Shown here piece by piece: positions 10,015 to 40,706 of a DNA stretch of 45,816 nucleotides. Both the position numbers and the translations under genes were made by a program. The first letter of the stretch is position 1, and every line of letters begins with the position of its first letter. The notes below the pieces were generated by a model. The model had not been told where the DNA came from. It did not search any database and was given only the letters and a program-made list of their open reading frames with translations. The DNA is from Thermincola carboxydiphila (GTDB lineage Bacteria; Bacillota; Thermincolia; Thermincolales; UBA2595): assembly GCA_016841325.1 (NCBI GenBank), contig JAENZJ010000020.1, forward strand, positions 1-45,816, in the 5' to 3' direction.

Positions 10015-11766
10015 ATGGCTTTTGACGGACTGGTTATGGCTGCTGTCAGGGAAGAACTGAGAAAAACCGTTATTAACGGCCGGATTGAAAAAATATACCA
10101 GCCCCTGGCCAGGGAAATAGTCCTGTTAATTCACAGAGACCGCACCAAACACCGGCTCCTGATATCAGCTGATGCCGGAAAAGCCCGGATACATATTACA
10201 AAAACCGTCAGGGAGAACCCCCTGACCCCTCCCCTGTTTTGCATGGTCCTCAGGAAACACCTTGAAGGCGGAAAAATCACCGGTGTTGACCAGCCGGGTC
10301 TGGAAAGAATTCTGCTGATAAGGGTAGAGGCAACAGACGAGCTGGGCATCCTGGCAGAAAAAACTCTGGTATGTGAGGTTATGGGAAAACATAGCAATAT
10401 TATCCTGGTCAATCCAGGTTCCAATACTATCCTTGACGGAATCAACCGTTATTCGTATGCCACCAGCAGGCACCGCGAGGTATTGCCGGGACGCCGGTAT
10501 GTATTCCCGCCGGAATCAGAAAAGCAGGACCCGTCTACGGTAACTGAGGATGATTTCCGCTCAGCACTGTGGGACCCGTCCCGGGACCTGCCTGTGGAGA
10601 AAATACTGCTGGATAAGTTTGACGGTCTCAGCCCGCAGACATGTAGGGAAATAACTGCCCGGGCCGGCCTTGAGCCCAATACCGGAAGCCAGTTTCTTGG
10701 TGAATTGGAGCTGAATCAGCTCTGGAGAGCTTTTAAAACAATTCAGGAACAGCTCCGGTCCGGCGCCTTTAATCCGGTAGTCTGTTACAAAGATAACATT
10801 CCCGCCGCCTTCTCAGCAATAAACCTGACCCATCTTTCTGAAGCCCGCTGCAGCCAGGGAAGCATCAGTGAGGTTATTGATGAATTTTTCGCGGTCAGGG
10901 AACGCATGGAACAATTTCGGCAGGAAGCAGCAGGCCTGCTGAAGGTACTGAAAAATGAAATCAAAAAAGTCCGGAAGAAGCATTCCATACACACCCTGAA
11001 TCTGGAAAAAGCCGGTGAGGCCGAAAAACTGAAAATTTTCGGTGAACTGATTATTGCAAACCTCTACCGGATCCCGGAACATGCCGATACTGTTGAACTG
11101 GAGAATTACTATGACCCGGAAGGCAAAAAAGTCCGGATTCCGCTGGACCCCCGGTTTTCCGCAGCTGAGAATGCCCAGATATATTTCAGGAAATACAGTA
11201 AGGCCCGCCAGGCAGGTACCATCGCCAGGAACTATCTTCAGGAAACCGGTGCTGAACTCGATTACCTCAATTCTGTGGTCACCGCCGTTGAGCAGGCAGA
11301 AAACCTGACCGAACTGGAAGAGATAAAGGCTGAACTCATCAAAGAAGGATACCTTAAACCGGAAAAAACGGGTTCCAAAAATGCCAGGAAACCGGAAACT
11401 CATGCCGCCAAACCGGAACCCATGAAACTGAAAACAGATGACGGCTTTGAAATCCTGGTAGGCCGCAACAACAGGCAAAACGAATACCTGACCATGAAGC
11501 TGGCACAGCCGGACGATCTCTGGCTGCATGTTAAGGAAATCCCGGGCTCCCATGTCGTTGTCAGGGACCCCCTGGCTGCCGGAGTCCCTGACAGTGTCAT
11601 CCAGAGGGCCGCAGAGATAGCTGCATACTATTCCCGGGCCCGCGAATCCTCCAAGGTGCCTGTGGACTACACTTTACGGAAAAATGTCCGCAAACCCAAA
11701 GGGGCCAAGCCGGGAATGGTCATTTATGACAACCAGAGGACGGTCTTTGTGAAGCCAAATCTGTAG
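10015..11766 (+). CDS. rqcH: NFACT-family ribosome quality control protein (RqcH / Fbp-like)
   Basis: RqcH binds stalled 50S subunits and recruits alanyl-tRNA to tag incomplete chains; older annotations call it fibronectin-binding protein. The 583-residue protein has the NFACT-N start MAFDGLVMAAVREEL with RTKHRLLIS. A central coiled coil covers about residues 280-420. The C-terminal NFACT-R domain has DDGFEILVGRNNRQN, DDLWLHVKEIPGSHVV and YDNQRTVFVKP. I chose the ATG at 10015 because AGAGGGGTGA precedes it. It has its own promoter and a strong terminator, so it is probably monocistronic. Confidence 0.93.
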   Translation: MAFDGLVMAAVREELRKTVINGRIEKIYQPLAREIVLLIHRDRTKHRLLISADAGKARIHITKTVRENPLTPPLFCMVLRKHLEGGKITGVDQPGLERILLIRVEATDELGILAEKTLVCEVMGKHSNIILVNPGSNTILDGINRYSYATSRHREVLPGRRYVFPPESEKQDPSTVTEDDFRSALWDPSRDLPVEKILLDKFDGLSPQTCREITARAGLEPNTGSQFLGELELNQLWRAFKTIQEQLRSGAFNPVVCYKDNIPAAFSAINLTHLSEARCSQGSISEVIDEFFAVRERMEQFRQEAAGLLKVLKNEIKKVRKKHSIHTLNLEKAGEAEKLKIFGELIIANLYRIPEHADTVELENYYDPEGKKVRIPLDPRFSAAENAQIYFRKYSKARQAGTIARNYLQETGAELDYLNSVVTAVEQAENLTELEEIKAELIKEGYLKPEKTGSKNARKPETHAAKPEPMKLKTDDGFEILVGRNNRQNEYLTMKLAQPDDLWLHVKEIPGSHVVVRDPLAAGVPDSVIQRAAEIAAYYSRARESSKVPVDYTLRKNVRKPKGAKPGMVIYDNQRTVFVKPNL

Positions 11767-11769
11767 CAA

Positions 11770-11816
11770 AAAAGTAGAATGAGTCAGCCATCACAGGGCT
11801 GACTCATTCTACTTTT
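11770..11816. terminator. Bidirectional terminator after rqcH
   Basis: A 20-bp perfect stem (11770-11789 with 11797-11816) has an A-rich left flank and ends ACTTTT. It can stop rqcH on the plus strand and the small membrane-protein gene on the minus strand. Confidence 0.85.
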
Positions 11817-11852
11817 ATCAGGGTAAACAGTTGGTGTCATTATTTCTATTTT

Positions 11853-12179
11853 TTAATCAGTAAAAGCGAGGTAACCGGGAATAATAAAGTTTACAACAGG
11901 AATAAGCATCAGGAGACCCAGCCAGCCTTCCTTGCCGCGGGCCTTGGCAATTTCCATCCAAACCAGGATAGTGATAACAATATTGACCAGGGGAATGATA
12001 AACAGCACCAGCCACCACCCGGGTTTACCGGCAATCTTGCACATCAGGTAAATATTGGCAATAGGAATCCAGGCCAGCCATCCGTTTGACGTATTGGTTT
12101 TGTTGGCTATAGTCTGGAGAGCATATGACATATAAATATAAATTCCGATATAAATTATTAATGATAATAAATCTTCCAT
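11853..12179 (-). CDS. Small membrane protein, DUF5684-like
   Basis: The 108-residue protein is mostly membrane helices. It contains NGWLAWIPIANIYLMCKIAGKPGWW, then WMEIAKARGKEGWLGLLMLIP, a pattern I associate with the DUF5684 family of unknown function. AAAGGGG precedes the ATG. It lies downstream of another small membrane protein on the same strand, and they may be co-transcribed. Confidence 0.7.
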   Translation of the reverse strand: MEDLLSLIIYIGIYIYMSYALQTIANKTNTSNGWLAWIPIANIYLMCKIAGKPGWWLVLFIIPLVNIVITILVWMEIAKARGKEGWLGLLMLIPVVNFIIPGYLAFTD

Positions 12180-12296
12180 TTCGTCGCCCCTTTATATGAT
12201 TTTGCGGGTTCCTGCAGACAGCCCGCACATACTATGTTAACAAACAGCCTGACACCAACCGGAACCTTCACTGTTTCAAACCTGACTTCACAGCTT

Positions 12297-12638
12297 TTAA
12301 ACTTCATCTGCAGTTTGTCTTTCGGTTATTATATGCATAAAATAGTAAACTGCCATTACAATCACATTAAAGAAAAACATCAGGCACAGCCAGACGGTTT
12401 TTTCCGTATTTCCCAGCCTGGGGTTTCTGACCATGTGACCCACATATACGATTATATTTATTATAAAAGTAATAATAATCAAAAGATAAACACCCACAAA
12501 ACCGATAATTAGGTCCATGGGAGGGTCTCCAGCAGGATTTTGCACGGCAAAAACCATGAGTTTTGCAAAGATAATAACCAAAAGTAAAAAGGGCAGAAAA
12601 GTTGAAAGTCCTATCAGTACCTTTTTCCCTGTAGACAT
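12297..12638 (-). CDS. Hypothetical three-helix membrane protein
   Basis: The 113-residue protein has three hydrophobic helices (about residues 8-32, 43-68 and 82-103) and a short charged tail. The helix FFFNVIVMAVYYFMHI after NTEKTVWL vaguely recalls the PLDc_N helical module, but I cannot assign it. GGGGGGGAGGTG lies upstream of the ATG, so it is probably translated. Confidence 0.6.
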   Translation of the reverse strand: MSTGKKVLIGLSTFLPFLLLVIIFAKLMVFAVQNPAGDPPMDLIIGFVGVYLLIIITFIINIIVYVGHMVRNPRLGNTEKTVWLCLMFFFNVIVMAVYYFMHIITERQTADEV

Positions 12639-12753
12639 GTTAATTACACCTCCCCCCCTGGATATCTTGATGGTTTCGACAGATATCCCTGTTTTTCCTC
12701 TAAAATCGTCTTATATTTTGTCCATAGCAGGCCGGCCGCTGGTATCTAACAAC

Positions 12754-12790
12754 AAAGACCCGTTACGGTTTTCCGTGTAACGGGTCTTTT
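12754..12790. terminator. Terminator at the end of the pyrimidine operon
   Basis: AAAGACCCGTTAC (12754-12766) pairs perfectly with GTAACGGGTCTTT (12777-12789), with T-rich flanks on both strands. It lies immediately past the pyrE stop codon. Confidence 0.8.
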
Positions 12791-12793
12791 CTC

Positions 12794-13369
12794 TCATACC
12801 TGCCTGCTGCCCGGTTTTACCAGGGGCAGTCCCTCTCTGCATAAGGGACAGGCCTCAGGGTCATATGATTGTATTTCCATAGGGAGCACGGCTTCAGTTT
12901 TGACACCAAAGTCCACCTTGCCGTTGCTGCGGTCAACCAGAACCCCAACCCCGACCACCTCAGCGCCTGTCCGGCGGACAACATCAATTACCTCTTTGAC
13001 TGAACCTCCTGTGGTAACCACATCCTCAACAACCAATACCCTTTCACCCGGCTCAATAACAAAACCCCTTCTCAGGGACATTACGCCCTGTTCCCTCTCT
13101 GTAAATATTGTCCTGACCCCCATGGCCCTGCCCACTTCGTAGGCCACTAAGATCCCGCCCAGTGCGGGACCAATGACCGTATCTACCTTAATGCCGGCAA
13201 ACCTTTCGGCAAGGTCACTGCAGAGCTGTGACGCATATTCAGGGTACTGCAGGACCTGGGCACACTGCATATACTGGCCGCTGTGCCTTCCTGAAGTGAG
13301 CCGGAAGTGTCCGTTCAGCAGAGCCTTTGATTTGGTGAAAATTTCAATAGCCTGTTCTTTTGTTAACAA
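12794..13369 (-). CDS. pyrE: Orotate phosphoribosyltransferase
   Basis: The enzyme joins orotate to PRPP to form OMP. The PRPP-binding motif VLVVEDVVTTGGS and RHSGQYMQCAQ are visible in the 191-residue protein. A C-terminal tail has a CPLC pair. The start is TTG at 13369, overlapping the pyrF stop by seven bases, with GAGGG in the end of pyrF. This overlap indicates translational coupling. It is the last gene of the operon. Confidence 0.96.
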   Translation of the reverse strand: MLTKEQAIEIFTKSKALLNGHFRLTSGRHSGQYMQCAQVLQYPEYASQLCSDLAERFAGIKVDTVIGPALGGILVAYEVGRAMGVRTIFTEREQGVMSLRRGFVIEPGERVLVVEDVVTTGGSVKEVIDVVRRTGAEVVGVGVLVDRSNGKVDFGVKTEAVLPMEIQSYDPEACPLCREGLPLVKPGSRQV

Positions 13370-14091
13370 TTTAAACCCTCCTCCATTTCAGCAACTATTC
13401 TCTTGGCTGCCTCCACAGGGTCAGCAGCCCCTGTGATTGGCCTGCCAACCACCAGGTAACTGGCGCCTGCCTGAACCGCCTCTTTCGGTGTCATCACCCG
13501 TTTCTGGTCATTTACCTCTGCCCATGCAGGGCGTACTCCAGGGGTTACGATCACAAAATCGGGACCACATGCCTCCCTGATAGCAGTTATCTCTTTTGGT
13601 GAAGCTACTACGCCATTCAGTCCTGAATCCTGTGCCAGTCTGGCCCAGCGGACAACCTGGGAGGCCACACTCCCGGGAACGCCCATTTCATTGTTCAGGA
13701 TGTCCTGATTAATGCTGGTCAGGACGGTAACCCCGATAACCAGCGGCCCGGGCACACCGGACCTGCTGCTCTCCGCTGCGGTAAACTCCACGGCTTTGCG
13801 CATCATTTCTGAACCGCCGGCTGTATGTACATTATACATAAACACCTTCATCCGGGTCAGCACTGCCCCTGCCTTCCCCACCGTATTGGGAATATCGTGC
13901 AGCTTCAGGTCGAGAAAAACCCTGCCGCCAAGGCTGTGAATCCTGTTGACAACCTCGGGGCCCTCACTGTTAAACAACTGCATTCCGATCTTGAATACCC
14001 CTGCATGGTCCTGCAGCATTGACACGAGTTTTTCAGCCTCTTTTACGGTATCCACATCAAGCGCTACAATAAGCCTTTCTTTGGCAGACAT
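13363..14091 (-). CDS. pyrF: Orotidine 5'-phosphate decarboxylase
   Basis: The enzyme decarboxylates OMP to UMP. The catalytic LDLKLHDIPNTV and the phosphate-binding GVRP, VVGRPI and ALD motifs are present. The ATG at 14091 with GGAGGT seven bases upstream gives 242 residues, the family length. The open frame extends to 14136 without a better start. It follows pyrD and overlaps pyrE. Confidence 0.96.
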   Translation of the reverse strand: MSAKERLIVALDVDTVKEAEKLVSMLQDHAGVFKIGMQLFNSEGPEVVNRIHSLGGRVFLDLKLHDIPNTVGKAGAVLTRMKVFMYNVHTAGGSEMMRKAVEFTAAESSRSGVPGPLVIGVTVLTSINQDILNNEMGVPGSVASQVVRWARLAQDSGLNGVVASPKEITAIREACGPDFVIVTPGVRPAWAEVNDQKRVMTPKEAVQAGASYLVVGRPITGAADPVEAAKRIVAEMEEGLNC

Positions 14092-14107
14092 GTTGTACAC
14101 CTCCATT

Positions 14108-15067
14108 TCATTTCCAGGCGGCCCCCACCAGATCATTTATGTCTGTTATACCATTATCCCTCATATATTGTTGGATTCCGGTAATGATATCCATGGTGGC
14201 TGCCGGATTGACAAAGTTAGCGGTCCCCACGGCAACCGCGGTGGCCCCTGCCAGGATGAATTCAATAGCATCCTCAGCATTCATTATCCCGCCCATTCCC
14301 AGGATGGGCAGCCTCACCGCCTGGGCTGCCTGCCAGACCATCCGGACGGCCACCGGCCTGATAGCCGGACCGGAGAGTCCGCCCATGATATTACCGAGAA
14401 ACGGTTTCCTGGACCTGATATCTATTTTCATACCCAGCAGGGTGTTGATCAGAGCCAGGGCATCTGCCCCCGCTTCGGCAACCCTGCCGGCAATTTCAAC
14501 TATGTCAGTCACATTGGGTGACAGCTTGGCAATCAGGGGAAGTGTGGTATTCTCCCTGACCACCCGGATCACCTCTGCAGCCATCATGCAGTCAGTGCCA
14601 AAAACCATGCCACCCTGTTTCACATTGGGGCACGAAATGTTTACCTCCAGGGCCGATACGCCCTGGGCCCCGGACAGCCTCCGGGTAACCTCTGCATAGT
14701 CATCAAGAGAATTGCCGGCAATATTAACAATAACCGGTGTATCATAATTCCTGAGATAAGGCAGGTCTTCCCTGATAAAGTGGTCCACACCGGGATTCTG
14801 CAGCCCGATACAGTTAAGGATACCGGCAGGGGTCTCAGCAATCCTGGGAGTCGGGTTGCCCTTACGGGGTTCCAGGGTGGTTCCTTTTACAGTAATGGCG
14901 CCAAGCCTGTTAAGGTCCACATAAGGCGCATATTCGGGGCCAAAACCAAAAGTGCCCGAAGCAGTTGTCACCGGGTTTTTCATTTGCAGCCCGCCCAGGT
15001 TTACACTCAGGTTAACCCCCTGGCTGCCAGCTTGTCTGTCAGTCAGATTATCAGCCGGGTTAGTCAT
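14108..15067 (-). CDS. pyrD: Dihydroorotate dehydrogenase B, catalytic subunit
   Basis: This class 1B FMN enzyme oxidises dihydroorotate to orotate and passes electrons to PyrK and NAD. The catalytic cysteine is in [26 protein letters not shown] and the FMN-phosphate region GMGGI are present. The first 20 residues before VNLSVNLGG are non-conserved. The ATG overlaps the pyrK stop by eight bases, consistent with equal synthesis of the two subunits. Confidence 0.95.
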
Positions 15068-15878
15068 CCAGAATCACCTCACTTGCCTCAAAAACCGGAC
15101 CGTCTGTACATACCTTTTTATATTCAAAGCCCCCTGCGGAAGCGGGCTGCTCAGTGCCGCCACCGGTTCTGTTTTTACACACACAGGCCAGGCAGGCGCC
15201 TACCCCGCAGCCCATGTATTCCTCCAGGGAAACCTGACCGCTGAGCCCAAACCCTTTAGTCAGGCTTATCAGCCCTTTGAGCATGGGATAGGGGCCACAG
15301 GCAAAAAAGTAATCCGGTTTAGCAGCGGGAATAACGTCTTCAGCCAGCCCGGTGACAAACCCCTGATAACCAAAGCTGCCGTCATCTGTAGCTATCTTTA
15401 CTTTTACCCCCAGTGACTCCAGCTGCTCCCTGCCAATGACAAATGCCGCCGACCGTGCTCCCAACAGGACAGTCTGCTCAATTCCATAATGCTTCAGACT
15501 TTGGACAAGGGGGAACAGGGGAGCCACTCCGATACCTCCGCCCACAACCAGGGCCTTATTAATTCCGTCAGGAATTGTAAAACCATTTCCCAGGGGGCCC
15601 ATCAGGTCAATCCCGTCACCGGGGGACATCTCCGCCAGCATACGGGTCCCTGTCCCGACAACCTGATAGAGGAGGCTGATGGTGCCTTTGCCATAATCAA
15701 TGCCATGGAGGCTGATGGGCCTTCTCAGCAGCGGGTCCATGCCGCTGCTGCAGCGAATGTGGACAAACCGCCCGGGCTTGGCCAGTTTTGTTAACTGCGG
15801 AACATACACCCGCATCAGAAAATGTTCCGGACCAACTTTCGTATTCATAACAACTTCACCTAATCCAGAAAAAGACAT
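15060..15878 (-). CDS. pyrK: Dihydroorotate dehydrogenase B, electron transfer subunit
   Basis: The subunit carries FAD and a [2Fe-2S] cluster and links PyrD to [12 protein letters not shown] binds [12 protein letters not shown] binds the nucleotide, and the cluster cysteines are in [11 protein letters not shown] and KVCTDG. The 272-residue length is normal. The two genes upstream of it (aminotransferase, metallophosphoesterase) separate it from carB, which is unusual. Confidence 0.95.
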
Positions 15879-15899
15879 GGCGTAAATTCACCTCACATG

Positions 15900-17018
15900 T
15901 TAGTAGTCAGCGGCAAGATACTCTCCGACCTGACGCAGGGCTGTGGGAAAATCCCTTCTGCCCAGGCCCACCCTGAAGTGGTTGCCACTATAGTCAAAAA
16001 CCGTGCCCGGCAGTATCATAACATTTTTGCTGCTGACGATTTTTTCACAAAACTCCTCTGCGGGGATGCGCGGATCCAACTGCGGAAAGGCAACCGACCC
16101 TCCCCGGGGCGGCATCCAGGTAAACAGGTCGGGGTAACTGGCAAAAAATTCTTCGGCAATAGTCTTATTTCTGCAGATGATATCCATATTCCTGGCAATA
16201 ATTTTTTCTCTCGCCTCCAGTGCCATAAGAGCCAGGACCTCTGAGGGTGCGCTGCTGCAGATGGTGGTATAATCCTTAAAAGTGGCGAACCTTTTCAGCA
16301 GTTCCCGGTCACGGGTTACCAGCCAGCCTGTTCTCAGTCCGGGAAGCCCGAAGGCCTTGGAAAGTCCTGACAGGGTAATCCCCTTTTCATAACAGGCGGC
16401 CATTGTATCAAGACGTGATGTTGCATCAAATTCCATAAGCCGGTACATCTCATCGGAAAATATGTATATCCCCCTGCTGCGGGCCAGTTCTATTATCCGG
16501 TCATATTCTGCTTTTGAAGGTATATAACCGGTTGGATTATGCGGAAAATTAACTATAATCAGACGGGTTTCCGGCCTGAAAGCCTTTTCGAGGACATCAG
16601 TGTCCAGGTGCCATGAACCGTCGCCTGTTTCAAAACCCCACCGGGTGACAGTGCAGCCCAAAGATTCGGGAATTTCGTAGAGGGACTGGTAAGCGGGGTG
16701 AATCACAACCACATGGTCACCCTTGCCCAGGAGGGTATTTAAGGCAATAAATATCCCTTCTTCAGGAACAGCCGTCAGGATATCATCACCGGAAATCCCC
16801 GGGTAAAGGCCGGCCACCGCCTCGCGCAGACCCGGGTGCCCTGCTGACTCGGTATACCCGAGGCTCAGGCTGTCCCATAACTGCAGAGTGCGGGAATCAG
16901 CCATGGCCAGCAGTTCAGCCATGGTCAGGCTCTCACAGTCAGATGCACTTAACAGATACCTGACACTGAATTCATATTTGGCGAAAAACCTTTCCAGCTT
17001 AAATTCCTGAAGCTTCAA
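15900..17018 (-). CDS. PLP-dependent aminotransferase, class I/II
   Basis: This fold type I aminotransferase has 372 residues. NFPHNPTGY, SDEMYR and the PLP-lysine segment SGLSKAFGLPGLRTGW are clear, and the C-terminal arginine is in FRVGLGRRDF. The start is TTG with GGAAGGGG upstream, one base after the metallophosphoesterase stop. It is embedded in the pyrimidine operon between the metallophosphoesterase and pyrK. The substrate cannot be read from sequence. A link to carbamoyl phosphate or amino-acid supply is only a guess. Confidence 0.88.
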   Translation of the reverse strand: MKLQEFKLERFFAKYEFSVRYLLSASDCESLTMAELLAMADSRTLQLWDSLSLGYTESAGHPGLREAVAGLYPGISGDDILTAVPEEGIFIALNTLLGKGDHVVVIHPAYQSLYEIPESLGCTVTRWGFETGDGSWHLDTDVLEKAFRPETRLIIVNFPHNPTGYIPSKAEYDRIIELARSRGIYIFSDEMYRLMEFDATSRLDTMAACYEKGITLSGLSKAFGLPGLRTGWLVTRDRELLKRFATFKDYTTICSSAPSEVLALMALEAREKIIARNMDIICRNKTIAEEFFASYPDLFTWMPPRGGSVAFPQLDPRIPAEEFCEKIVSSKNVMILPGTVFDYSGNHFRVGLGRRDFPTALRQVGEYLAADY

Positions 17019-17019
17019 T

Positions 17020-17850
17020 TCAATGTCCCCTTCCTAAATTACTATGGTTCAAAGGCAGCAGGGTAACCAGTACAATTTCCGGCCTGATATTCAGTCTGAT
17101 GGGTAAATCACTCTCCCCGAGTCCCGGGCTGATAATCATCGTGGAATGGCCGGACTGATACCTGCCGTAACTCCACCGGGGGAATAACCCCTGACCGGGT
17201 GCAAAAACAGCACCCACCAGAGGAAACCTCACCTGTCCTCCATGGGTATGCCCGGTGAGTACAAGGTCCACTTTATTGGCTGCAGCCTCAGGGAAAATGT
17301 CAGGTGAATGGGCCAGCAGTATCTGCGGCGCTCCCCCGGCCGCTTTGAGGGATTCATCAAGTCTGTCCCTTCCGGTATGCGGGTCATCCACACCCAGGAT
17401 CCATATGGAGCCCCTGTCATCACCTGTATTCTCGGCTTTATTGTCCAGTATCCGGACCCCCAGGGCCACAAGTTTTTCCCGCTGCCGGAAACCTGTCTTC
17501 CACTCATGGTTGCCAGGTACAAAATAGACCGGTTTATCAGGCAGTTGTTCAATAATTTCTATCGCAGGGTCAAGGTCCGGCCTGAACTTATTAACCAGAT
17601 CTCCGGTAATGGCAACCAGATCAAACTGCTGCTGTCTGATTAAATGCATGAGGTTCTGCTGTCTTTTCCCAAACCGTTTTCCGTGCAGGTCGCTAAGGTG
17701 AAGCACTGTGAATCCGGCCAGACCTTCCGGCAGGTCTGACAGGTAAACACTGTACTTCTTAACCTTTAAGGTATATCGTTCCCTGTACCATATAAAAAAT
17801 AAAATAATTATTGCTGTTATTAGGATAATACCATATCCAAATATCCGCAA
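17020..17850 (-). CDS. Membrane-anchored metallophosphoesterase (YkuE-like)
   Basis: An N-terminal membrane helix (IILITAIIILFFIWY) is followed by a calcineurin-type domain. All metal-binding blocks are present: LSDLHG, TGDLVNK, GNHEWK, LAHSPD and TGHTHGGQ. Relatives include B. subtilis YkuE, proposed to act on phospholipids, and UDP-diacylglucosamine hydrolases. The start is TTG with GGGAGGAC upstream. It lies 130 bases downstream of carB with a hairpin between, and abuts the aminotransferase, so these two may be a later insertion into the operon. Confidence 0.88.
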   Translation of the reverse strand: MRIFGYGIILITAIIILFFIWYRERYTLKVKKYSVYLSDLPEGLAGFTVLHLSDLHGKRFGKRQQNLMHLIRQQQFDLVAITGDLVNKFRPDLDPAIEIIEQLPDKPVYFVPGNHEWKTGFRQREKLVALGVRILDNKAENTGDDRGSIWILGVDDPHTGRDRLDESLKAAGGAPQILLAHSPDIFPEAAANKVDLVLTGHTHGGQVRFPLVGAVFAPGQGLFPRWSYGRYQSGHSTMIISPGLGESDLPIRLNIRPEIVLVTLLPLNHSNLGRGH

Positions 17851-17932
17851 GTGGCTGTCCTCCCATTAACAGAGTTCCTGGCGTCAGGTAAGACAATATC
17901 CATGAGAATCAAGAGACAGTTTTATTGTATAA

Positions 17933-17961
17933 GTGGCCAGTGGTTTTTTACCACTGGCCAC
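17933..17961. terminator. Perfect 12-bp hairpin after carB
   Basis: GTGGCCAGTGGT (17933-17944) pairs perfectly with ACCACTGGCCAC (17950-17961). On the minus strand there is no long T run after it (TTATACAATAAAA), so it may be a partial terminator or a stability structure between carB and the metallophosphoesterase gene. Confidence 0.5.
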
Positions 17962-17978
17962 CCCGGGGGCAAAACCCT

Positions 17979-20900
17979 TTAAGCCAGATATTCCTGCAGT
18001 GGAATCATGGCAAAGTCTTTGCCCTGCTCTAATGACTGCAGTACACTGAGGATAACAGTTGTGGTATCAAGTGAAGTCAGGCATGGAATAGCATGTTCAA
18101 CTGCCGCCCTTCTTATGCGGAAACCGTCCCGTTCCGGCATTTTACCCCTTGTAAGGGTATTGATCACCAGGTCGATCTTACCCTGCCTTATAATATCTAT
18201 AATATTAGGTGAACCCTCTCTGATTTTGTTAACCTTCTCTACGGGCAGGCCGGCTTCATTGAGTACTCTTGCCGTACCGCATGTGGCTACCAGCCTGAAG
18301 CCCAGATCAACAAAGCCCTTCAGGATGGGTATTACTTCATCCTTGTCCTTGTCAGCCACTGTTGCCAAAATAGTACCTTTCCTGGGAATATCCAGCCCGG
18401 CAGCTACCAGGGCCTTATACATAGCCATGGAGAAGTCGGTATCAAAACCCATTACCTCACCGGTTGATTTCATCTCCGGCCCCAGGGAGGTGTCTACCCG
18501 AAGCAGTTTGGCAAAAGAGAATACCGGGGCCTTCACGGCTATATAGTCAGGGGCGGGATACAGCCCGCTTTGGTATCCCAGTTCCTTCAGGGTCTTGCCA
18601 AGAATCATTTTGGTGGCCACATTGACCATGGGCACTCCGGTAATTTTGCTGAGGTAGGGTACCGTCCGGCTGGAGCGAGGGTTTACTTCAATGACGTATA
18701 GCCGGTCATCATGGAGTACATACTGGATATTGATCAGGCCCTTAACATGGAGCGCCCTTGCCAGCCTGGTCGTATATTCAACCAGGTCAGCAGCCTGTTT
18801 GCTGTTAAGGCTGCGCGCCGGGTAAACAGCGATACTGTCACCTGAGTGGACCCCGGCCCTCTCGATATGCTCCATAATCCCGGGAATCAGCACATCTTCT
18901 CCGTCAGAAATGGCATCTACCTCAATTTCCTTACCTATCATATACTTGTCAACAAGTACCGGGTGTCTCGGTGATACATTAACCGCTGAGGTCATATACT
19001 CGAGGAGTTCATCCTGATTATAGACGATTTCCATGGCCCGGCCTCCAAGGACGTATGACGGTCTTACCAGGACCGGGAATCCTACCTCTTCGGCAATCTC
19101 CTGGGCCCCCTCCACCGATGTGGCAGTCCTGCCAGGCGGTTTGGGGATTTTCAGTTCCATCAGCAGTTGGTCAAATTTATCACGGTCTTCAGCCATATCA
19201 ATATACTTAACATCTGTACCCAGTATCTTTACCCCTGCTTCTGCCAGCGGCTCAGCAAGGTTGATGGCTGTCTGCCCGCCGAACTGGACAACCACACCCT
19301 CAGGTTTTTCCAGTTCAATAATGTTTAAGACATCCTCCGGGATCAATGGTTCAAAATAAAGCCGGTCTGAAGTGTCAAAATCGGTACTTACTGTCTCCGG
19401 GTTGTTATTAATGATAATGGTTTCTATACCTTCTTCCCTGAGTGACCACACCGAATGCACCGAGCAGTAATCAAACTCAATGCCCTGACCGATGCGGATA
19501 GGCCCTGACCCCAGGACAACAGCCTTACGGCGTTCCGTAGGGATAGCCTCATTTTCCTTTTCATATGCCGAGTAATAGTATGGTGTTACAGCTTCAAACT
19601 CAGCGGCACAGGTGTCCACCATCTTATAAACCGGCCGTAGTCCGTAATTCTTCCTAACCTCCCGTATTTCCTTCTCATCAAGTCCTGTCAGCTGGGATAT
19701 ATAAATATCAGGGAAACCCAGGTGTTTCGCTTTTGTCAGTACAGCTTCTGTCAGGAAACTGCTCCCCCCGGCCTTGACACCCTCTATGAGTTCAATCTCA
19801 AAATCAACAATGTTCTTTATCTTTTCCAGGAACCAGACATCTATTTTGGACATTTCGTGGAGGGACTCAACACTCATCCCGCGGCGCAAGCCTTCAGCCA
19901 CGAAAAAAATCCTTTCATCATCAGCGTTCCTGATTTTCGCCTCCAGGTCCTCCCGGGGGACACTGTCTATCCCCTTCATGGCAAGACCGGATAACCCTAT
20001 CTCCAGTGACCGGACAGCCTTCATCAGGCCTGACTCAAAAGTCCGGTCAATAGCCATAACCTCACCTGTTGCCTTCATCTGGGTCCCCAGGTTGCGGTCG
20101 GCAAAAGCGAACTTGTCAAAAGGCCAGCGCGGTATCTTGACAACAACATAGTCAAGGGCAGGTTCAAAAGCCGCATAAGTCTTTCCGGTAACCGCATTGC
20201 GGATCTCATCCAGGGTAAAGCCTATGGCTATTTTGGAAGCCACCTTGGCAATGGGAAATCCCGTGGCCTTGGAAGCCAGGGCGCTGGACCGGGATACCCT
20301 GGGGTTGACTTCAATAATAACATATTCAAAGCTGTTGGGATTTAAGGCCAGCTGGACGTTACAGCCGCCCTCAATCCCCAGGGCCCTGATTATCTTAAGT
20401 GATGCCGTCCTTAAAAGCTGGTATTCCTTGTCAGCCAGGGTCTGGGAAGGGGCCACAACGATACTGTCCCCGGTATGAATCCCGACAGCATCAATGTTTT
20501 CCATGTTACAGATGGTGATGCAGTTATCATTGCTATCCCTGATTACCTCATATTCAATTTCCTTCCAGCCGGCCACACTTTGCTCAATCAGGCACTGTTT
20601 AATCATGCTGAGCTTAAGCCCCTTTATGGCAATGGCCCTGAGTTCTTCAATATCATTGGCAATCCCGCCCCCGGTACCGCCCAGGGTATATGCAGGACGG
20701 ACGATCACCGGGTAACCGGTTTTTTCCGCAAAGGCCACCGCATCCTCAACATTGTCAACAATAGTACTTTCCGGAATCGGTTCCCCGATTTCCTGCATCA
20801 TGGCCTTAAACAACTCCCGGTCTTCAGCCTTCTTAATGGTCTCCAGAGGAGTACCCAGAAGTGCTACCCCCTCCTCTTCAAGAATACCCTGTTCCGCAAG

Positions 20901-33532: not shown

Positions 33533-35770
33533 TTACTTGTGGATTAATATGCTTCCACCACCCAAAACCACTGCAGGGTCAGCTGTAACCTCAGCTCCTG
33601 ACTGATTGTCATAGACAGGGTCGCCCGTTATCCTGTCCCATATTTTGATCCGGAACTTATCGGGCCCTCCGGTATCGTCACCATCAAGAGCTGTCAAGAT
33701 AAACCCGTAACTACCCTTGCCATTGATGGTTCCCCGGCCTTTGAACTGCCCTTTGGTCCCGCTGACTACCAGCCATTCGTATTCCGAACTGGAAAAATCC
33801 AGACTGCCTGCCTTGAATTGGAATCTTGTGTTACCAGTGGGAACTGCAGCTCCTTTCAGGTACCTGGATACAAACCCGAAGTTTGCCCTCCCGGTCAACA
33901 GGGGGTCGGCTGCATAGGCCCCAATGGGTGAATATATCCAGCCTCCTCCGGTAATAAAACCTGCGTCAGCATCATATACGACTATGTACCGGTAATCCTT
34001 CTGCACAGCGGCCCCATCGTTGTCCCGCAGGGTCAGGATGACGGTATAGACACCTGCCTTGGTGTAGACGTGGCTGCCACTGGCAGTACCGGACCCCTGG
34101 CTCTCATTTATCCGGCCTGCTGAACTGCTCCCGTCACCCCACTCCCAGTCGGCGCTATGTAAGTCAGCCGTACCAGAGTCAGAAAAACCGGTGGTTACAT
34201 TTACTGTCGTGTTAACCTGGACCGGGTCTATGGGAGCACTGATTGCATCCAAAAAAGGAGCTGCATTATGGATAATTAACTCAAAGGATGTCTCCCCCAC
34301 ATTGCCCTGCCCGTCTGTGGCAGTAATTTTTATAGTACTGCTCTGGGCAGGCCCGTCAGTAGAAACAAAGGACCAGGTCCAGGTACCGTCACCATTGTCT
34401 GTTACCTCACCTGCTGAGGCTGTCAGGGTTACCGGGTCATTGTCAGGATCACTGATGGCTCCAGTGTTCACAATCAGCTGACCTTCCCCTGCTGTTACAT
34501 TTGCTCTGGCAACAGATATGACAGGCGGCCGGTTCAGGGCATGTCCAAACATTTCAGCAGGGTGACAGGCGCCACAGCTGCTGTCTCCTGATGTAATTGC
34601 CAGCTGTATATCCGGGTCCGGGTTATTGTGACATGTAAAACAGCTTAAAGGCATCCCCTGAGGGTCATACCTTCTCAGGTGTTCCCTGGTAAGTACAGTA
34701 CTGTGACACTCAGTGCAGCCGGTTGTGGTTGAGGAGTGCTCCACGGCAGTTTCAAAGATATTATGAACTGAAGGTACTGCCGTTGCTGCCCACCCCCTGT
34801 CATGACACCCTGTACAGCTGTAAATCACCTGAACCGGGTGCAGGGGCGGTTCTTCCAGAGGCAGCCCGTTCCTATGGTAGGCTGCAGGATAGTCTCTGGA
34901 GTCAAAATGGCAGTAATAGCAGTCATCAAGGGGGTAAACAGGATCTGTGGCGCTGAAGTTAACCCCATGGCATTTACTGCAGTTGTCCACCACATGCTCT
35001 GTCCTGTCATGGCAGCTCTGGCAGGTTGCATCATCTACCAAATATGTCATTTCCTCAAAAGTATTAACATAAAACTGCCAGGTCGCTTTTACGGTATTAC
35101 CGTGTATGTCTTTAAGGGTTAAAGAGGCATCATAAAATGTCTCATTGTCCAGCGGCTCTTCAGGTTTGTAGCTAACCGTTTCGTAGACAGAATCATATAC
35201 TGCCGCCACAGGTACATTATTTAGTGTCATCAATATCGTTGCAGGGTCGACAATATCCCCTGATGTCAAACCTGCACTGATTACCGGTGTCCTGTTGACA
35301 ACAGTCGCACCGTTGGCCGGACTGGTATTTAGTATTTTCAGCGGCTCGTTCACCGTAAATGACCAGCTGACTATACTGCTGTTACCCTTCCGGTCTTTGA
35401 CGAAAACCTCTGCAGTGTGACTGCCTGGAGCCAGGCTGACGGGAGCATATATTTCCAGGGTGGTATAATCATCTGCAGACTCATCAATGGGAGTATACTG
35501 GGCCACAGGGCTGACAGCCAGTCCGTCTACCTTCATGACAAGTGAAGAATAATCAATTAAATCAGTGTCTATGGCAACAAGGGAGATGACAATTTTTGTC
35601 TGTTTCACCGTAATTCCCCTGGCAGGGTATAGCTTGGTGAAGACAGGTCCGGTTGTGTCCGCAGATGCCGGTAAAGCAAATGCAAAAGTAAGAAATGAGC
35701 TTATTAATGCGGTCAGCAACATATATAGCGGCCATTTTTTTAAGTTCACTGAGATGCTGTAATCAGACAC
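33533..35770 (-). CDS. Secreted seven-heme cytochrome with Ig-like and PKD domains
   Basis: A signal peptide (about residues 1-37) leads to two Ig-like repeats (40-235), then seven CxxCH heme sites at residues 250, 264, 284, 319, 352, 377 and 399. A cadherin-like repeat (415-510) is followed by a PKD domain with DWEWGDGSSS and HVYTKAGVYTVILTLRD. A C-terminal beta domain starts FITGGGWIYSP. The start is GTG with GGAGGTAATACA in front. The layout suggests an exposed surface protein that holds a heme string away from the cell. Two Spo0A-box-like sites lie about 110 bases upstream. It follows the hexaheme gene but is separated from it by two terminators, so it is its own transcript. Confidence 0.88.
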   Translation of the reverse strand: MSDYSISVNLKKWPLYMLLTALISSFLTFAFALPASADTTGPVFTKLYPARGITVKQTKIVISLVAIDTDLIDYSSLVMKVDGLAVSPVAQYTPIDESADDYTTLEIYAPVSLAPGSHTAEVFVKDRKGNSSIVSWSFTVNEPLKILNTSPANGATVVNRTPVISAGLTSGDIVDPATILMTLNNVPVAAVYDSVYETVSYKPEEPLDNETFYDASLTLKDIHGNTVKATWQFYVNTFEEMTYLVDDATCQSCHDRTEHVVDNCSKCHGVNFSATDPVYPLDDCYYCHFDSRDYPAAYHRNGLPLEEPPLHPVQVIYSCTGCHDRGWAATAVPSVHNIFETAVEHSSTTTGCTECHSTVLTREHLRRYDPQGMPLSCFTCHNNPDPDIQLAITSGDSSCGACHPAEMFGHALNRPPVISVARANVTAGEGQLIVNTGAISDPDNDPVTLTASAGEVTDNGDGTWTWSFVSTDGPAQSSTIKITATDGQGNVGETSFELIIHNAAPFLDAISAPIDPVQVNTTVNVTTGFSDSGTADLHSADWEWGDGSSSAGRINESQGSGTASGSHVYTKAGVYTVILTLRDNDGAAVQKDYRYIVVYDADAGFITGGGWIYSPIGAYAADPLLTGRANFGFVSRYLKGAAVPTGNTRFQFKAGSLDFSSSEYEWLVVSGTKGQFKGRGTINGKGSYGFILTALDGDDTGGPDKFRIKIWDRITGDPVYDNQSGAEVTADPAVVLGGGSILIHK

Positions 35771-35986: not shown

Positions 35987-36013
35987 AGAACAGGGCTGTT
36001 AATGCCCTGTTCT
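35987..36013 (-). terminator. Second terminator after the hexaheme gene
   Basis: AGAACAGGGC (35987-35996) pairs perfectly with GCCCTGTTCT (36004-36013). On the minus strand the tail is TTTTGTTTTTTT. Confidence 0.8.
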
Positions 36014-36030
36014 GAAAAGAAAAATTTTTT

Positions 36031-36059
36031 AAAAAAAAGGGGGGCCCGTTGAGCCCCCC
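36031..36059 (-). terminator. First terminator after the hexaheme gene
   Basis: GGGGGGC (36039-36045) pairs with GCCCCCC (36053-36059). On the minus strand it is followed by eight T. With the next hairpin it forms a double terminator, as often seen after highly expressed genes. Confidence 0.88.
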
Positions 36060-36105: not shown

Positions 36106-37557
36106 TTAGATAGTCGGGTTGGTTCCTGCTGCTTTTTGATCCCAGTAGTACTGAGTGTTCTTGAAGGTTTCAGCCTTGGAATCACTGTGACACTTCCAGC
36201 AAACAGCCATGTTGGTGTAACGCTTCAGAGCTGAGGATGCGTTTACATCAGGTGAGGTTACAGGCTGATCCTGAGCATCCAGCATGATTGAAGCATCAGT
36301 ACCGTGAGCGAAGTGGCAGGTCAGACATACCATGTTAGTGCCTTCACCGATCATACCGGCCTTGAGGCCCTGGCTGATCTTATGACGGAATGCTGAACTG
36401 AAGGTACCGGTTTCTTCTGCGGCGGTGTTAGCATTGTAGTCGGTGTGGCAGGCAGCACAGAATGCGTTAACACCTGACACGTAAGTGGTAACTTCATTTA
36501 CAGGTACATTGTTGGGAGCAGTGGCAATCTGATTCAGACCTACCTTAACAACAGTAGCCGGAGCTACATCCATTTGTACCTTGGTCAGGTCAGCCGGCAG
36601 TACGCCGCTTGGATCTGTGAAGTAGCCTTCATTGTAATGAATTTCAAGGACATCATTGTAAGACTGGGTCGGGTTGCCCTGAACCTTGTAGTTCCATTCT
36701 GCTGTTCCATCTGCGTCACTGTCATACAGAACACGGATCTGTGACCAGTAAACCTTGGGCCTTCCGTATGTGTAACCATAGAGCCATGGCTCTGTAATAG
36801 CATTTCCATCAGCATCTACTGCTGTGTAGTGTCCGGTAGCTGAATCAAGAGCAATGGTAGCATTTACAATCTTCTTACCACCGGTCGGGTTGCCGGCTGC
36901 ATCTGTAGGAGCAGTTGCACCCATGTTGTTGGGGTTGTAATGGAGAAGCCTGTCACTGTAGGAACCGTGCGGAGCGTGGCAGCTGGCACAGGTAAATTCC
37001 TTACCCCAGGTGTTTACATCAGTACTGGTCCTGTTACCACCAGGTGCTGCACTTGTGGTCATAACACCGGTAGCCATGTGGACTGATGCATTACCTACTA
37101 CCTTGTCAGGGTCACCGCCGAAGGTACCGGCATTGGAACCCTCGAATACGTTGTAGAAGCCTAAAGTACCGTCATGGCAAGCTGTACAGGTGTTATATAC
37201 ACCGTTTTTGAACAGCAGGTCCCTGCCTGAAGCGGTGTGAGTCTGGTGGCAGGAAGCACATGAGTTGGTGTCATTGGTGTACTCACCGTGTGTCGCGTGC
37301 CCTTCAACGTTTTTGATAACATCACTGAAACTTGTTCCATCATTTACATCTACGTTTTTACCTGTTTGGTTAGCGTTTACCAGCCCGGGTGTAACGGTAG
37401 TTGAATCAACATAACCACCGCCGGAAGTCAGAGGAGTATTGTACTTGTCAGAAGTTGTGTCCGGATCATAATCTCCAGGTGCGGCAAGTGCAACACTTAC
37501 TCCGAGTGTCAGCATTAAGGCCAGTGCTAACGCCATTACTAAGCTGAACTTTTTCAC
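36106..37557 (-). CDS. Secreted six-heme c-type cytochrome, OmcS-like heme pattern
   Basis: The 483-residue protein has a signal peptide (KKFSLVMALALALMLTLGVSVALA) and six CxxCH sites at residues 100, 124, 190, 367, 411 and 453. Extra histidines that could complete bis-His ligation are 87/90, 107, 160, 197, 392 and 418. The series CASCHQTH, CTACHDG, CASCHAPHG, CAACHTD, CLTCHFAHG and a C-terminal CWKCH resembles the OmcS series as I recall it (CEGCHTMH, CLNCH, CSSCHDPHG, CANCHTD, CLSCHRAH, CNKCH). The GTG at 37557 has AAAGGAGG upstream. A TTG further upstream, behind GGGGGTGAG, would lengthen the signal peptide. There is a 177-residue stretch between hemes 3 and 4 that is longer than in OmcS. 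I infer an extracellular electron-carrying, possibly filament-forming protein. Confidence 0.9.
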   Translation of the reverse strand: MKKFSLVMALALALMLTLGVSVALAAPGDYDPDTTSDKYNTPLTSGGGYVDSTTVTPGLVNANQTGKNVDVNDGTSFSDVIKNVEGHATHGEYTNDTNSCASCHQTHTASGRDLLFKNGVYNTCTACHDGTLGFYNVFEGSNAGTFGGDPDKVVGNASVHMATGVMTTSAAPGGNRTSTDVNTWGKEFTCASCHAPHGSYSDRLLHYNPNNMGATAPTDAAGNPTGGKKIVNATIALDSATGHYTAVDADGNAITEPWLYGYTYGRPKVYWSQIRVLYDSDADGTAEWNYKVQGNPTQSYNDVLEIHYNEGYFTDPSGVLPADLTKVQMDVAPATVVKVGLNQIATAPNNVPVNEVTTYVSGVNAFCAACHTDYNANTAAEETGTFSSAFRHKISQGLKAGMIGEGTNMVCLTCHFAHGTDASIMLDAQDQPVTSPDVNASSALKRYTNMAVCWKCHSDSKAETFKNTQYYWDQKAAGTNPTI

Positions 37558-37686: not shown

Positions 37687-38700
37687 TTACCGGGTCTGGA
37701 ATACGGCCACCCTTTGGTTGGTGGTATCTGTCACATATATCCGGCCCCTCTCGTCAACAAACAGGCCATTAGGCAGGGAGAACTGTTTTTCTCCTTCACC
37801 GTATCCACCAATGGAGAATACCTGTTTACCGTCTTTGTCAAAACCGTAAATCCTGTGGGTCAGATTGCTGACAGCATAGATATTGCCCTGAGAATCGACT
37901 CCGATACCCCTGGGGTTGACAAATACTGACTGGCCCTTGCCATCCTTGGAACCATTTACTGTCTTCTTGTATTTCCCGTCTTTGTCAAATACCTGGAGCC
38001 TCTGGTTTCCTGTATCAGTAATATAAACATTTCCGTCATTATCCACGGCTACCGCATTGGGAGCATTCAGCTCACCAGGCTTGGTGCCTTTCTTGCCATA
38101 TTCTTTGATTAATTTACCATTTAAGTCAAAGGTCTTAACTGTATGGCTCTTGACATCAGTTACATAAACCCGGTCATTTTTGATTGCTATCCCTGCAGGC
38201 ATCTGAAAAATATTTTCTGAAGCGTTTTTCTCAGCAAACAGGCCCTTGAAGTTACCGTCTTTGTCAAATCTGGACACACTCCCGTTATACAGGTCAGCCA
38301 CATAAATGGTCCCTTTACTGTCTCCGGCCAGCCCATACGGGAACTGGAACTGTCCCGGCTCGGTACCTGCTTTGCCAAAGGTCTTTATGGGATTTCCTTC
38401 ATAATCAAAGATTTGTACCCTCTTGTTATTTGTATCAGCTATATATATCTGTTCATTGGCTACGGTGACTGCCATGGGTTTGTCAAACTCACCGCCCCCG
38501 AACTTACCATAAATCAGTCTTACAAAAGACGGCTCACCCGAAGGAGTGGCAGCAAAGTTCTGCAGCCCGTTGAAGACATCTTTATTGGTCAGGTAACTGT
38601 ACAGAAATCCTGTCAGTGAGATTACAAACATCAACTGTACAATCCAGTAGACGTATTTTCGTTTGATGGTAATACCTGTTTTTCCCGCAACTTCTGCCAT
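37687..38700 (-). CDS. Membrane-anchored NHL-repeat beta-propeller
   Basis: One N-terminal helix (YWIVQLMFVISLTGFLYSYL) anchors an extracellular propeller of about six NHL blades. Repeated motifs include PMAVTVANEQIYIADTNNKRVQIF, PYGLAGDSKGTIYVADLYNG and PNAVAVDNDGNVYITDTGNQRLQVF. Such propellers often bind protein or carbohydrate partners. The neighbours are a TPR protein and the hexaheme cytochrome, so I infer a role in cytochrome assembly or docking. It lacks heme motifs. The ribosome-binding site is weak (GGGATGAT). Confidence 0.87.
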   Translation of the reverse strand: MAEVAGKTGITIKRKYVYWIVQLMFVISLTGFLYSYLTNKDVFNGLQNFAATPSGEPSFVRLIYGKFGGGEFDKPMAVTVANEQIYIADTNNKRVQIFDYEGNPIKTFGKAGTEPGQFQFPYGLAGDSKGTIYVADLYNGSVSRFDKDGNFKGLFAEKNASENIFQMPAGIAIKNDRVYVTDVKSHTVKTFDLNGKLIKEYGKKGTKPGELNAPNAVAVDNDGNVYITDTGNQRLQVFDKDGKYKKTVNGSKDGKGQSVFVNPRGIGVDSQGNIYAVSNLTHRIYGFDKDGKQVFSIGGYGEGEKQFSLPNGLFVDERGRIYVTDTTNQRVAVFQTR

Positions 38701-38790: not shown

Positions 38791-39456
38791 TTATTTAAGC
38801 CTGGCCAGGGCGTCCTTGGCTTCCTGGAACTTGGGGTCATAATCCAAGGCTCTCTGGTAAAGCTCCTTTGCCCCTTTTTCGTCCCCTGTTTTTTCCGCAG
38901 AAACACCTATCTGGTAAATCACATCTGCTGAACCCGGGTTTTCATCATTGGCCCTGTTGAGGGCAGTAATCGCCGACTTGTAATTGCCCTGGAGGTTATA
39001 CACAACACCCATCATCATAAAGGGCTTGTAATCCCTTGGTGCCAGCTTGGCTGCCTGGGAAAACGCTTCCAGTGCCTCATCATATTTCTGCATATCCTTA
39101 TAAACCAGTCCCATATTATAGTGAGGAGCAGCATATTTCTTGTCAAGGTCCGCAGCAATCTGGAACTGCTGCAGGGCTTCACTGTTTTTGGTTTTCAGGA
39201 ACAGGGTATAGCCGTAGTTGACTCTCATTTCAGGGTTTTTCGGTTCAGCTTCAACCTGGGACTTGTAAAATGCCAGCTGTTGGTCAATACGGGTTTCCTC
39301 TACTGACTTCCAGAAAAATGTCTTGCCCACCAGGAAACCTGATGCCACAAATACGGTTGCCGATACCAGAATAACAGCGATAGCCTGTAAAAGAGTAAAG
39401 GTCTTTTCATGTGAATTGATCCTTATTTTCCCGGCTTCTGGTGTTGCAGAACTCAT
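38791..39456 (-). CDS. Membrane-anchored TPR protein
   Basis: An N-terminal cytoplasmic segment and one helix (TLLQAIAVILVSATVFVASGFLVG) precede about four TPR units. Visible units include NPEMRVNYGYTLFLKTKNSEALQQF and YAAPHYNMGLVYKDMQKYDEALEAF. The 221-residue protein probably is an extracytoplasmic scaffold. AAGGAGGAAT precedes the ATG. It lies 14 bases after the 12-heme gene and 90 bases before the NHL gene. TPR proteins also occur in cytochrome maturation (CcmH/NrfG-like), so an assembly role is plausible. Confidence 0.87.
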   Translation of the reverse strand: MSSATPEAGKIRINSHEKTFTLLQAIAVILVSATVFVASGFLVGKTFFWKSVEETRIDQQLAFYKSQVEAEPKNPEMRVNYGYTLFLKTKNSEALQQFQIAADLDKKYAAPHYNMGLVYKDMQKYDEALEAFSQAAKLAPRDYKPFMMMGVVYNLQGNYKSAITALNRANDENPGSADVIYQIGVSAEKTGDEKGAKELYQRALDYDPKFQEAKDALARLK

Positions 39457-39470
39457 CAGTCAATTCCTCC

Positions 39471-40706
39471 TTATTGTACTGGTGTAATTTTTATCTTTGG
39501 CTGGGGAAGCTTTTTGCTGTCAGTATCCTTAATCCGGTGACATGTGGAACAAGAACTCCTTACATGGCACTGGAGACACTTGGGTTCAAGAACCGCATAC
39601 CTGGGTGGAACCTCTATGGGATGGGAAAGCCGCCAGGAACGATTCTTATGGATACTGGGATGGCATGAAGAACAGGCAGCCTTTTGGGTGGTCCCTTTGA
39701 CATCAGTTCTGGGGCTGTGGCAGACAAGGCACCTTTGTTCATCACTCTCTGCCCTCTTGCCGTGTTCAAAGGGCCAGTTGTCATCATGGGTCACAGGCCG
39801 CTTTTTATGACAATCAACACAGTATTCGTTGGTTTTGGCATAGTCGGTATAGTCAGAATCGGAACCTGTCTGCATGCTTGCCAGGTAGCTGGCCACCGGG
39901 TCCTCCTCATCAGGCATCTGGTTTGAGGTTACTCCGGGTGCCTTGATATATGAATGACAGGTATCACAGTAGTCAATATCCTTTTTCGCCTGCTGTCCGT
40001 GATTTACTTTAAATGAGCTCTCCCTGTGGTTTTCAGGCATCATATTGCCGCTGTGACAGGCCTCACAGGCCACAGTAACTCCCCGCCTGCCATGGCAGTC
40101 CATGCACAGCTGCATTTCCGGCAGGGTAAATTCCGGGTCCATTACCTTAGTCCCGGCAGCCCTGTCCCACTCACTAAAATCCCCTCCCATTGTCATTCCC
40201 CGGGAGGCTATATTTCCATGGGCCACTCCCTGGTGGCATTTAACACAGGCAACACCTTTTTCGTTATGCCTTTCATGGGGTATATACAGCCCCGGATATG
40301 AAGGTGATACCTTTCTGTCGGTGGAATGGCACTGCAGGCACCGGTCATCAGGGATTTCTTCCGTCATCCGTATTGGCAGTTCATAAGTCTTGGTTACATA
40401 ATGGTACAGTTCTTTGGTAGCAACAACCTTATGCTTAAGGGCATTGGTCAGCCCAGGGTCAACATGGCAGGTAACGCAGTCTACCTGGCTGTGGGATGAA
40501 GCCTCCCATGTAGCCACCTCGGGTTTCATTATGTGACAGGTTGCACAAAAATTCGGAGTCGAAGTTGCATAGGTCACTCCGATAAATGATACAATCATAA
40601 ACAAGAACACACCCATGGTGATGATTGTGAATTTAAGTATTTTCTTTGGGTCACTGAACACTTTTGCCAGAGGCAGTGTTCTCAATTTCTGTAAATCTAT
40701 TTTCAT
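39471..40706 (-). CDS. Membrane-anchored 12-heme cytochrome, NapC/NrfH-like N-terminus
   Basis: A single helix (KFTIITMGVFLFMIVSFIGVTYA) is followed by a NapC/NirT/NrfH-like tetraheme part, with CATCHIMKPE at residue 54, CVTCH at 77, CLQCH at 123 and CVKCHQGVAHG at 154. Eight more CxxCH sites follow at about 201, 214, 247, 296, 326, 345, 377 and 386, for 12 in total. NapC-type proteins oxidise menaquinol in the membrane and pass electrons outward. The extra eight hemes could extend the wire across the cell wall. GGAGGTCC precedes the ATG. It is the first gene of a four-gene transcript ending at the hexaheme gene. Confidence 0.92.
   Translation of the reverse strand: MKIDLQKLRTLPLAKVFSDPKKILKFTIITMGVFLFMIVSFIGVTYATSTPNFCATCHIMKPEVATWEASSHSQVDCVTCHVDPGLTNALKHKVVATKELYHYVTKTYELPIRMTEEIPDDRCLQCHSTDRKVSPSYPGLYIPHERHNEKGVACVKCHQGVAHGNIASRGMTMGGDFSEWDRAAGTKVMDPEFTLPEMQLCMDCHGRRGVTVACEACHSGNMMPENHRESSFKVNHGQQAKKDIDYCDTCHSYIKAPGVTSNQMPDEEDPVASYLASMQTGSDSDYTDYAKTNEYCVDCHKKRPVTHDDNWPFEHGKRAESDEQRCLVCHSPRTDVKGTTQKAACSSCHPSIHKNRSWRLSHPIEVPPRYAVLEPKCLQCHVRSSCSTCHRIKDTDSKKLPQPKIKITPVQ

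Follow-up and report, generated by a model that had tools for sequence, protein, structure and literature searches.

An OmcS-homologous hexaheme cytochrome of Thermincola carboxydiphila, a paralogue of CwcA and candidate subunit of a heme wire

Contig JAENZJ010000020.1 of Thermincola carboxydiphila (assembly GCA_016841325.1), of which the stretch from position 1 to 45,816 was analysed (hereafter the window, 45,816 nucleotides), carries a gene for a six-heme cytochrome. The question raised by this locus is whether the encoded protein is related to OmcS of Geobacter sulfurreducens and whether it could polymerise through heme ligation shared between neighbouring subunits, as the original prediction, made from the sequence without database searches, had proposed. 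The gene runs on the minus strand from a GTG at 37557, which is preceded by AAAGGAGG, to a stop codon at the end of the open reading frame at 36106, and encodes a protein of 483 aa. Its ribosome-binding site, AGGAGG at 37570-37565, is good to strong. By inspection of the sequence the signal peptide ends at ALA, directly before APGDY, and the protein is predicted to be secreted. The features of the gene were located as follows.

36106 to 37557, minus strand: hexaheme c-type cytochrome of an OmcS-like family, predicted to be secreted; GTG start at 37557; OmcS is the top PDB match of the family profile
37237 to 37260, minus strand: heme 1, CASCHQTH with a third His (His107, aligned with OmcS His16)
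37174 to 37188, minus strand: heme 2, CTACH
36964 to 36990, minus strand: heme 3, CASCHAPHG (His197, aligned with OmcS His147)
36460 to 36963, minus strand: variable loop between hemes 3 and 4, 168 aa, a clade-level expansion by length comparison, without a recognised domain
36445 to 36459, minus strand: heme 4, CAACH (followed by TD), then FRH392
36304 to 36327, minus strand: heme 5, CLTCHFAH (His418, aligned with OmcS His335)
36187 to 36201, minus strand: heme 6, CWKCH, close to the C terminus
35987 to 36059, minus strand: two strong intrinsic terminators in tandem, 3′ of the gene, at 36059-36039 and 36013-35987

It is clear from the translation that the six CXXCH motifs stand in the contexts originally listed, namely CASCHQTH, CTACH, CASCHAPHG, CAACHTD, CLTCHFAH and CWKCHSD, with CHxxH confined to hemes 1, 3 and 5 and with H107 as the third His of the first motif. 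The spare histidines that had been claimed were all there as well (H90 and H160, which precede hemes 1 and 3, and RH392, which follows heme 4), and so was the double terminator. Over the whole window, heme-motif matches at the DNA level numbered 29, where chance would give 3.6. A protein 95% identical to the window hexaheme is encoded on a contig of T. ferriacetica.

The relation to OmcS was determined by searches of the PDB. With the window protein alone (phmmer), OmcS was not found and the best match was MtrA; a profile of close orthologues did not find OmcS either. When paralogues from the same genome were added to the profile, OmcS was found with an E-value of 8.3e-8. A profile of 20 family members drawn from across Bacillota (profile A4) placed OmcS (6EF8) first among 177,635 PDB sequences, with 64.6 bits and an E-value of 1.3e-16, far above all other multiheme structures including the second match, the MtrA chain 6r2q (25.2 bits, E 1.2e-4). 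Chain A of 6r2q is labelled cystathionine beta-synthase, yet it holds many CXXCH motifs and is cited as MtrA in a paper. The OmcS sequence that served for the comparisons matched 6EF8 exactly along its full 407 residues. In hhalign, the family and OmcS were aligned with a probability of 99.4% and an E-value of 2.4e-21, all six hemes being covered, and the window protein shared 27% identity with OmcS over the aligned core positions. When the linkers of OmcS were shuffled with the CXXCH positions and all His kept fixed, none of 1000 shuffles reached the native score (maximum 29.8 vs 64.6). When the segments were permuted, the native order came 40th among 720 orders by full score and 23rd by best domain, so segment order adds only modest support.

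These results bear on a simpler reading, that the gene encodes some generic cytochrome of the paired-CXXCH or MtrA/DmsE-like kind, whose resemblance to OmcS comes from the heme motifs only. The single-sequence match to MtrA is in keeping with it, as are the curated libraries, in which the only matches were to paired CXXCH, to cytochrome c7 and, below cut-off, to DmsE; however, the ranking by profile A4, the hhalign result and the loss of score in shuffles that kept the motifs and His all disfavour it, and we consider it very improbable. That the window hexaheme is an OmcS homologue within an electron-transfer operon is, by our estimate, close to certain, and the comparison with OmcS first drawn, with an alignment proposed as its check, is borne out by the profile, hhalign and the shuffles. 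The window hexaheme resembles OmcS (6EF8, 6NEF) in having six hemes in the same contexts, 12 matching candidate ligand positions and full-length profile homology. The two differ in loop lengths and in host, Thermincola being Gram-positive and without an outer membrane. Polymerisation has been demonstrated for OmcS and is proposed for the window hexaheme.

Twelve histidines of the window hexaheme were present at OmcS ligand positions, with His90 and His2 offset by three residues; H2, the OmcS counterpart of H90, lies three residues closer to heme 1. Exactly six His outside the CXXCH motifs were invariant in the 20 family members, and the columns invariant in these members and OmcS together comprised the six CXXCH, H107/H16, H160/H110, H197/H147, H392/H257, H418/H335 and a few others. 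His107 and OmcS His16 share one such column, in agreement with the correspondence first suggested, and His16 is, we take it, the residue that ligates heme 5 of the neighbouring subunit. It is plausible from this alignment that His107 would likewise ligate heme 5 of the adjacent subunit. The alignment is no proof of shared ligation, since six hemes and six distal histidines would also fit one self-contained chain. Because the AlphaFold model of the mature protein is unusable (pLDDT 31.7, with only eight sequences in the alignment), the case for His107 at heme 5 is argued from homology.

The OmcS homologue could also be a cell-wall monomer or short oligomer, with all hemes ligated within the chain and His107 bound to a heme of its own subunit. 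The six hemes and exactly six invariant distal His would suffice for this without a neighbour, and OmcZ filaments indicate that even polymers can do without intersubunit ligation (PMC9473688). However, His107 and the remaining ligand positions correspond to those of OmcS, in which the distal His of heme 5 is supplied by the neighbouring subunit (PMC6584659; PMC7096707), and we hold the monomer or short oligomer to be rather unlikely. Polymerisation of the window hexaheme is likely but unproven, and a polymer with shared heme ligation appears moderately probable.

Hemes 3 and 4 are separated by 177 residues counted from Cys to Cys (172 between the motifs), the size originally given, but the accompanying idea of a new surface domain was not supported. 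The loop measures 162-166 residues in near relatives, 57 in the CwcA candidate described below and 94 in OmcS, with a family range of 50 to 225, and a Pfam search of the insert returned zero matches. A single weak PDB match to a mucus-binding protein (E 9e-4) was judged unreliable, and AlphaFold on the loop alone gave a pLDDT of 36.0 from a shallow alignment. Variable loop expansion suits the gap better as a description than a new domain does.

An OmcS-like nanowire has already been put forward for Thermincola, in a 2021 paper on a sister protein. Faustino et al. modelled CwcA (Tfer_0075, TherJR_1122) on OmcS at 18% identity, with 12 residues left unmodelled, and proposed it as a nanowire through the cell wall whose heme 5 is maybe ligated by the next subunit (PMC7911101). 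The authors did not succeed in keeping CwcA in solution and took this as a sign of polymer formation (PMC7911101), and the instability of this sister protein in solution also speaks against the window hexaheme being a monomer. In the same genome, contig C23 carries 10-heme, 12-heme and 17-heme genes followed by TPR, NHL and a 341-residue hexaheme, in an order that equals the spacing from Tfer_0070 to Tfer_0075, and this hexaheme extends 15 residues past its last CXXCH, 12 of them beyond the end of OmcS. The 12-residue overhang, which matches the unmodelled residues, and the gene order indicate that the C23 hexaheme is CwcA, an assignment based on these two properties.

The window gene itself was rejected as the CwcA orthologue, since gene order puts CwcA at C23 and since the window protein and the C23 candidate fell into separate clades of the tree with 100/100 support. 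The window hexaheme is thus a separate paralogue of CwcA, and as a new member of the OmcS-like/CwcA family it is well supported. The two proteins share genus, family, six hemes, likeness to OmcS and the proposed ligation of heme 5 by the next subunit; if CwcA is indeed the C23 gene, they also have TPR and NHL neighbours in common. They differ in sequence (29% identity over the aligned core), in the heme 3-4 loop (172 residues in the window protein vs 57) and in their operons, with one 12-heme protein in the window and 10-, 12- and 17-heme proteins beside the CwcA candidate.

OmcE, with which the archaeal cytochrome filaments are grouped, is also among the closest known systems. In OmcE filaments of G. 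sulfurreducens (7TFS) the interfacial heme is ligated by the neighbouring subunit, as is proposed for the window hexaheme, but OmcE has four hemes and matches profile A4 only at an E-value of 0.92. With six CXXCH, the window protein was assigned neither to the OmcE-type tetraheme filament class nor to the OmcZ-type octaheme class.

The hexaheme gene is the last of a compact minus-strand set that encodes a 12-CXXCH protein, a TPR protein, an NHL protein and the hexaheme; a NarL-type regulator gene lies upstream of the set, beyond its own terminator-like sites. The neighbouring genes are as follows.

39471 to 40706, minus strand: 12-CXXCH membrane cytochrome of NapC/NirT/NrfH type (PF03264, E 3.3e-19; NrfH-like TIGR03153 below cut-off)
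38791 to 39456, minus strand: TPR protein with an N-terminal hydrophobic segment (PF07719, E 1.3e-20), a conserved partner
37687 to 38700, minus strand: NHL-repeat beta-propeller protein with an N-terminal hydrophobic segment (PF01436, E 1.8e-40), which also precedes family members elsewhere
33533 to 35770, minus strand: predicted secreted Ig/PKD protein with seven CXXCH, downstream, beyond the double terminator

The NapC/NirT/NrfH domain of the 12-CXXCH protein is N-terminal, and this protein is probably a quinol oxidase that would feed the conduit; the hydrophobic N-termini of the TPR and NHL proteins suggest membrane anchoring. At the place of the Ig/PKD heptaheme gene, the 95% identical relative has no such gene (L016, 7452-8002) and another relative (L018) has a 10-heme gene. 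The slot downstream of the hexaheme is thus an accessory place for terminal cytochromes, holding the Ig/PKD heptaheme gene, a 10-heme gene or neither.

As a predicted secreted protein of an electron-transfer operon, the window hexaheme could in principle be a terminal reductase at the cell surface and not a wire. However, each heme has a distal His within its reach in the ligand count, which leaves no expectation of an open catalytic site, a separate secreted heptaheme is encoded downstream, and the genus has a known terminal reductase in OcwA (PMC7911101). A terminal reductase is therefore, to our judgement, a most unlikely role.

TPR, NHL and a six- or seven-heme cytochrome were found together at about six loci of the Thermincola genome, about five of them outside the window (L024, L026, L027, L028 and L029, on contigs C48, C23, C40 and C17). 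Several extra TPR-NHL sets adjoin giant cytochromes, in which CXXCH motifs number from 15 to more than 30, and in L028 the TPR-NHL-hexaheme set is followed by an open frame (11427-19004) that exceeds 2500 residues and contains at least 33 CXXCH. Among 299 sampled Bacillota genomes, 26 carried family members at E-values below 1e-20. Thirteen exact hexahemes from diverse Bacillota loci were compared; an NHL gene lay directly upstream in 11, a TPR gene was present in 10 and a 12-heme NapC-type gene in seven. Longer relatives with 9 to 12 CXXCH (L085, L087, L088, L090, L091), mostly without TPR-NHL neighbours, may represent a different branch of use. Viral contigs and plasmids gave no relatives at the thresholds used.

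The recurring four-gene set looks as if it were a conduit-assembly module, and it is less documented than the nanowire idea. In Geoalkalibacter, the gene for an OmcE homologue is accompanied by genes for two NHL proteins and for a putative quinol-linked cytochrome (PMC12016550), and NHL genes also occur in cytochrome clusters of Desulfovibrio ferrophilus; the function of the NHL genes in either setting was not established by those authors. TPR and NHL may serve in assembly or anchoring. More tentatively, we propose as a possibility, short of a probable one, that both membrane proteins form a dedicated and widely shared assembly and anchoring device for polymerising hexaheme wires of Gram-positives, with about six wire systems in a single Thermincola genome, several of which would have their own quinol-side and terminal cytochromes.

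Taken as a whole, we favour with some confidence the reading in which this OmcS homologue and CwcA paralogue makes up the exported end of a conduit encoded by four genes and forms a wire by stacking. The 12-heme NapC-type protein would take electrons from menaquinol at the membrane and hand them to the hexahemes outside, and the membrane-anchored TPR and NHL proteins would help to assemble or anchor the hexaheme subunits. All six hemes would be bis-histidine ligated. By analogy with OmcS, the subunits would most likely stack, each His107 serving as a ligand of heme 5 in the adjoining subunit, and the stacked hexahemes would give a heme wire that spans the thick cell wall.

If the polymer is real, it would count as one of the first cytochrome wires from a bacterium that lacks an outer membrane, and it would account for the passage of electrons across the thick cell wall. 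The TPR-NHL-hexaheme set offers a handle on wire assembly, a question that Geobacter poses as well, and with it candidate wires of Bacillota are simple to list and to test.
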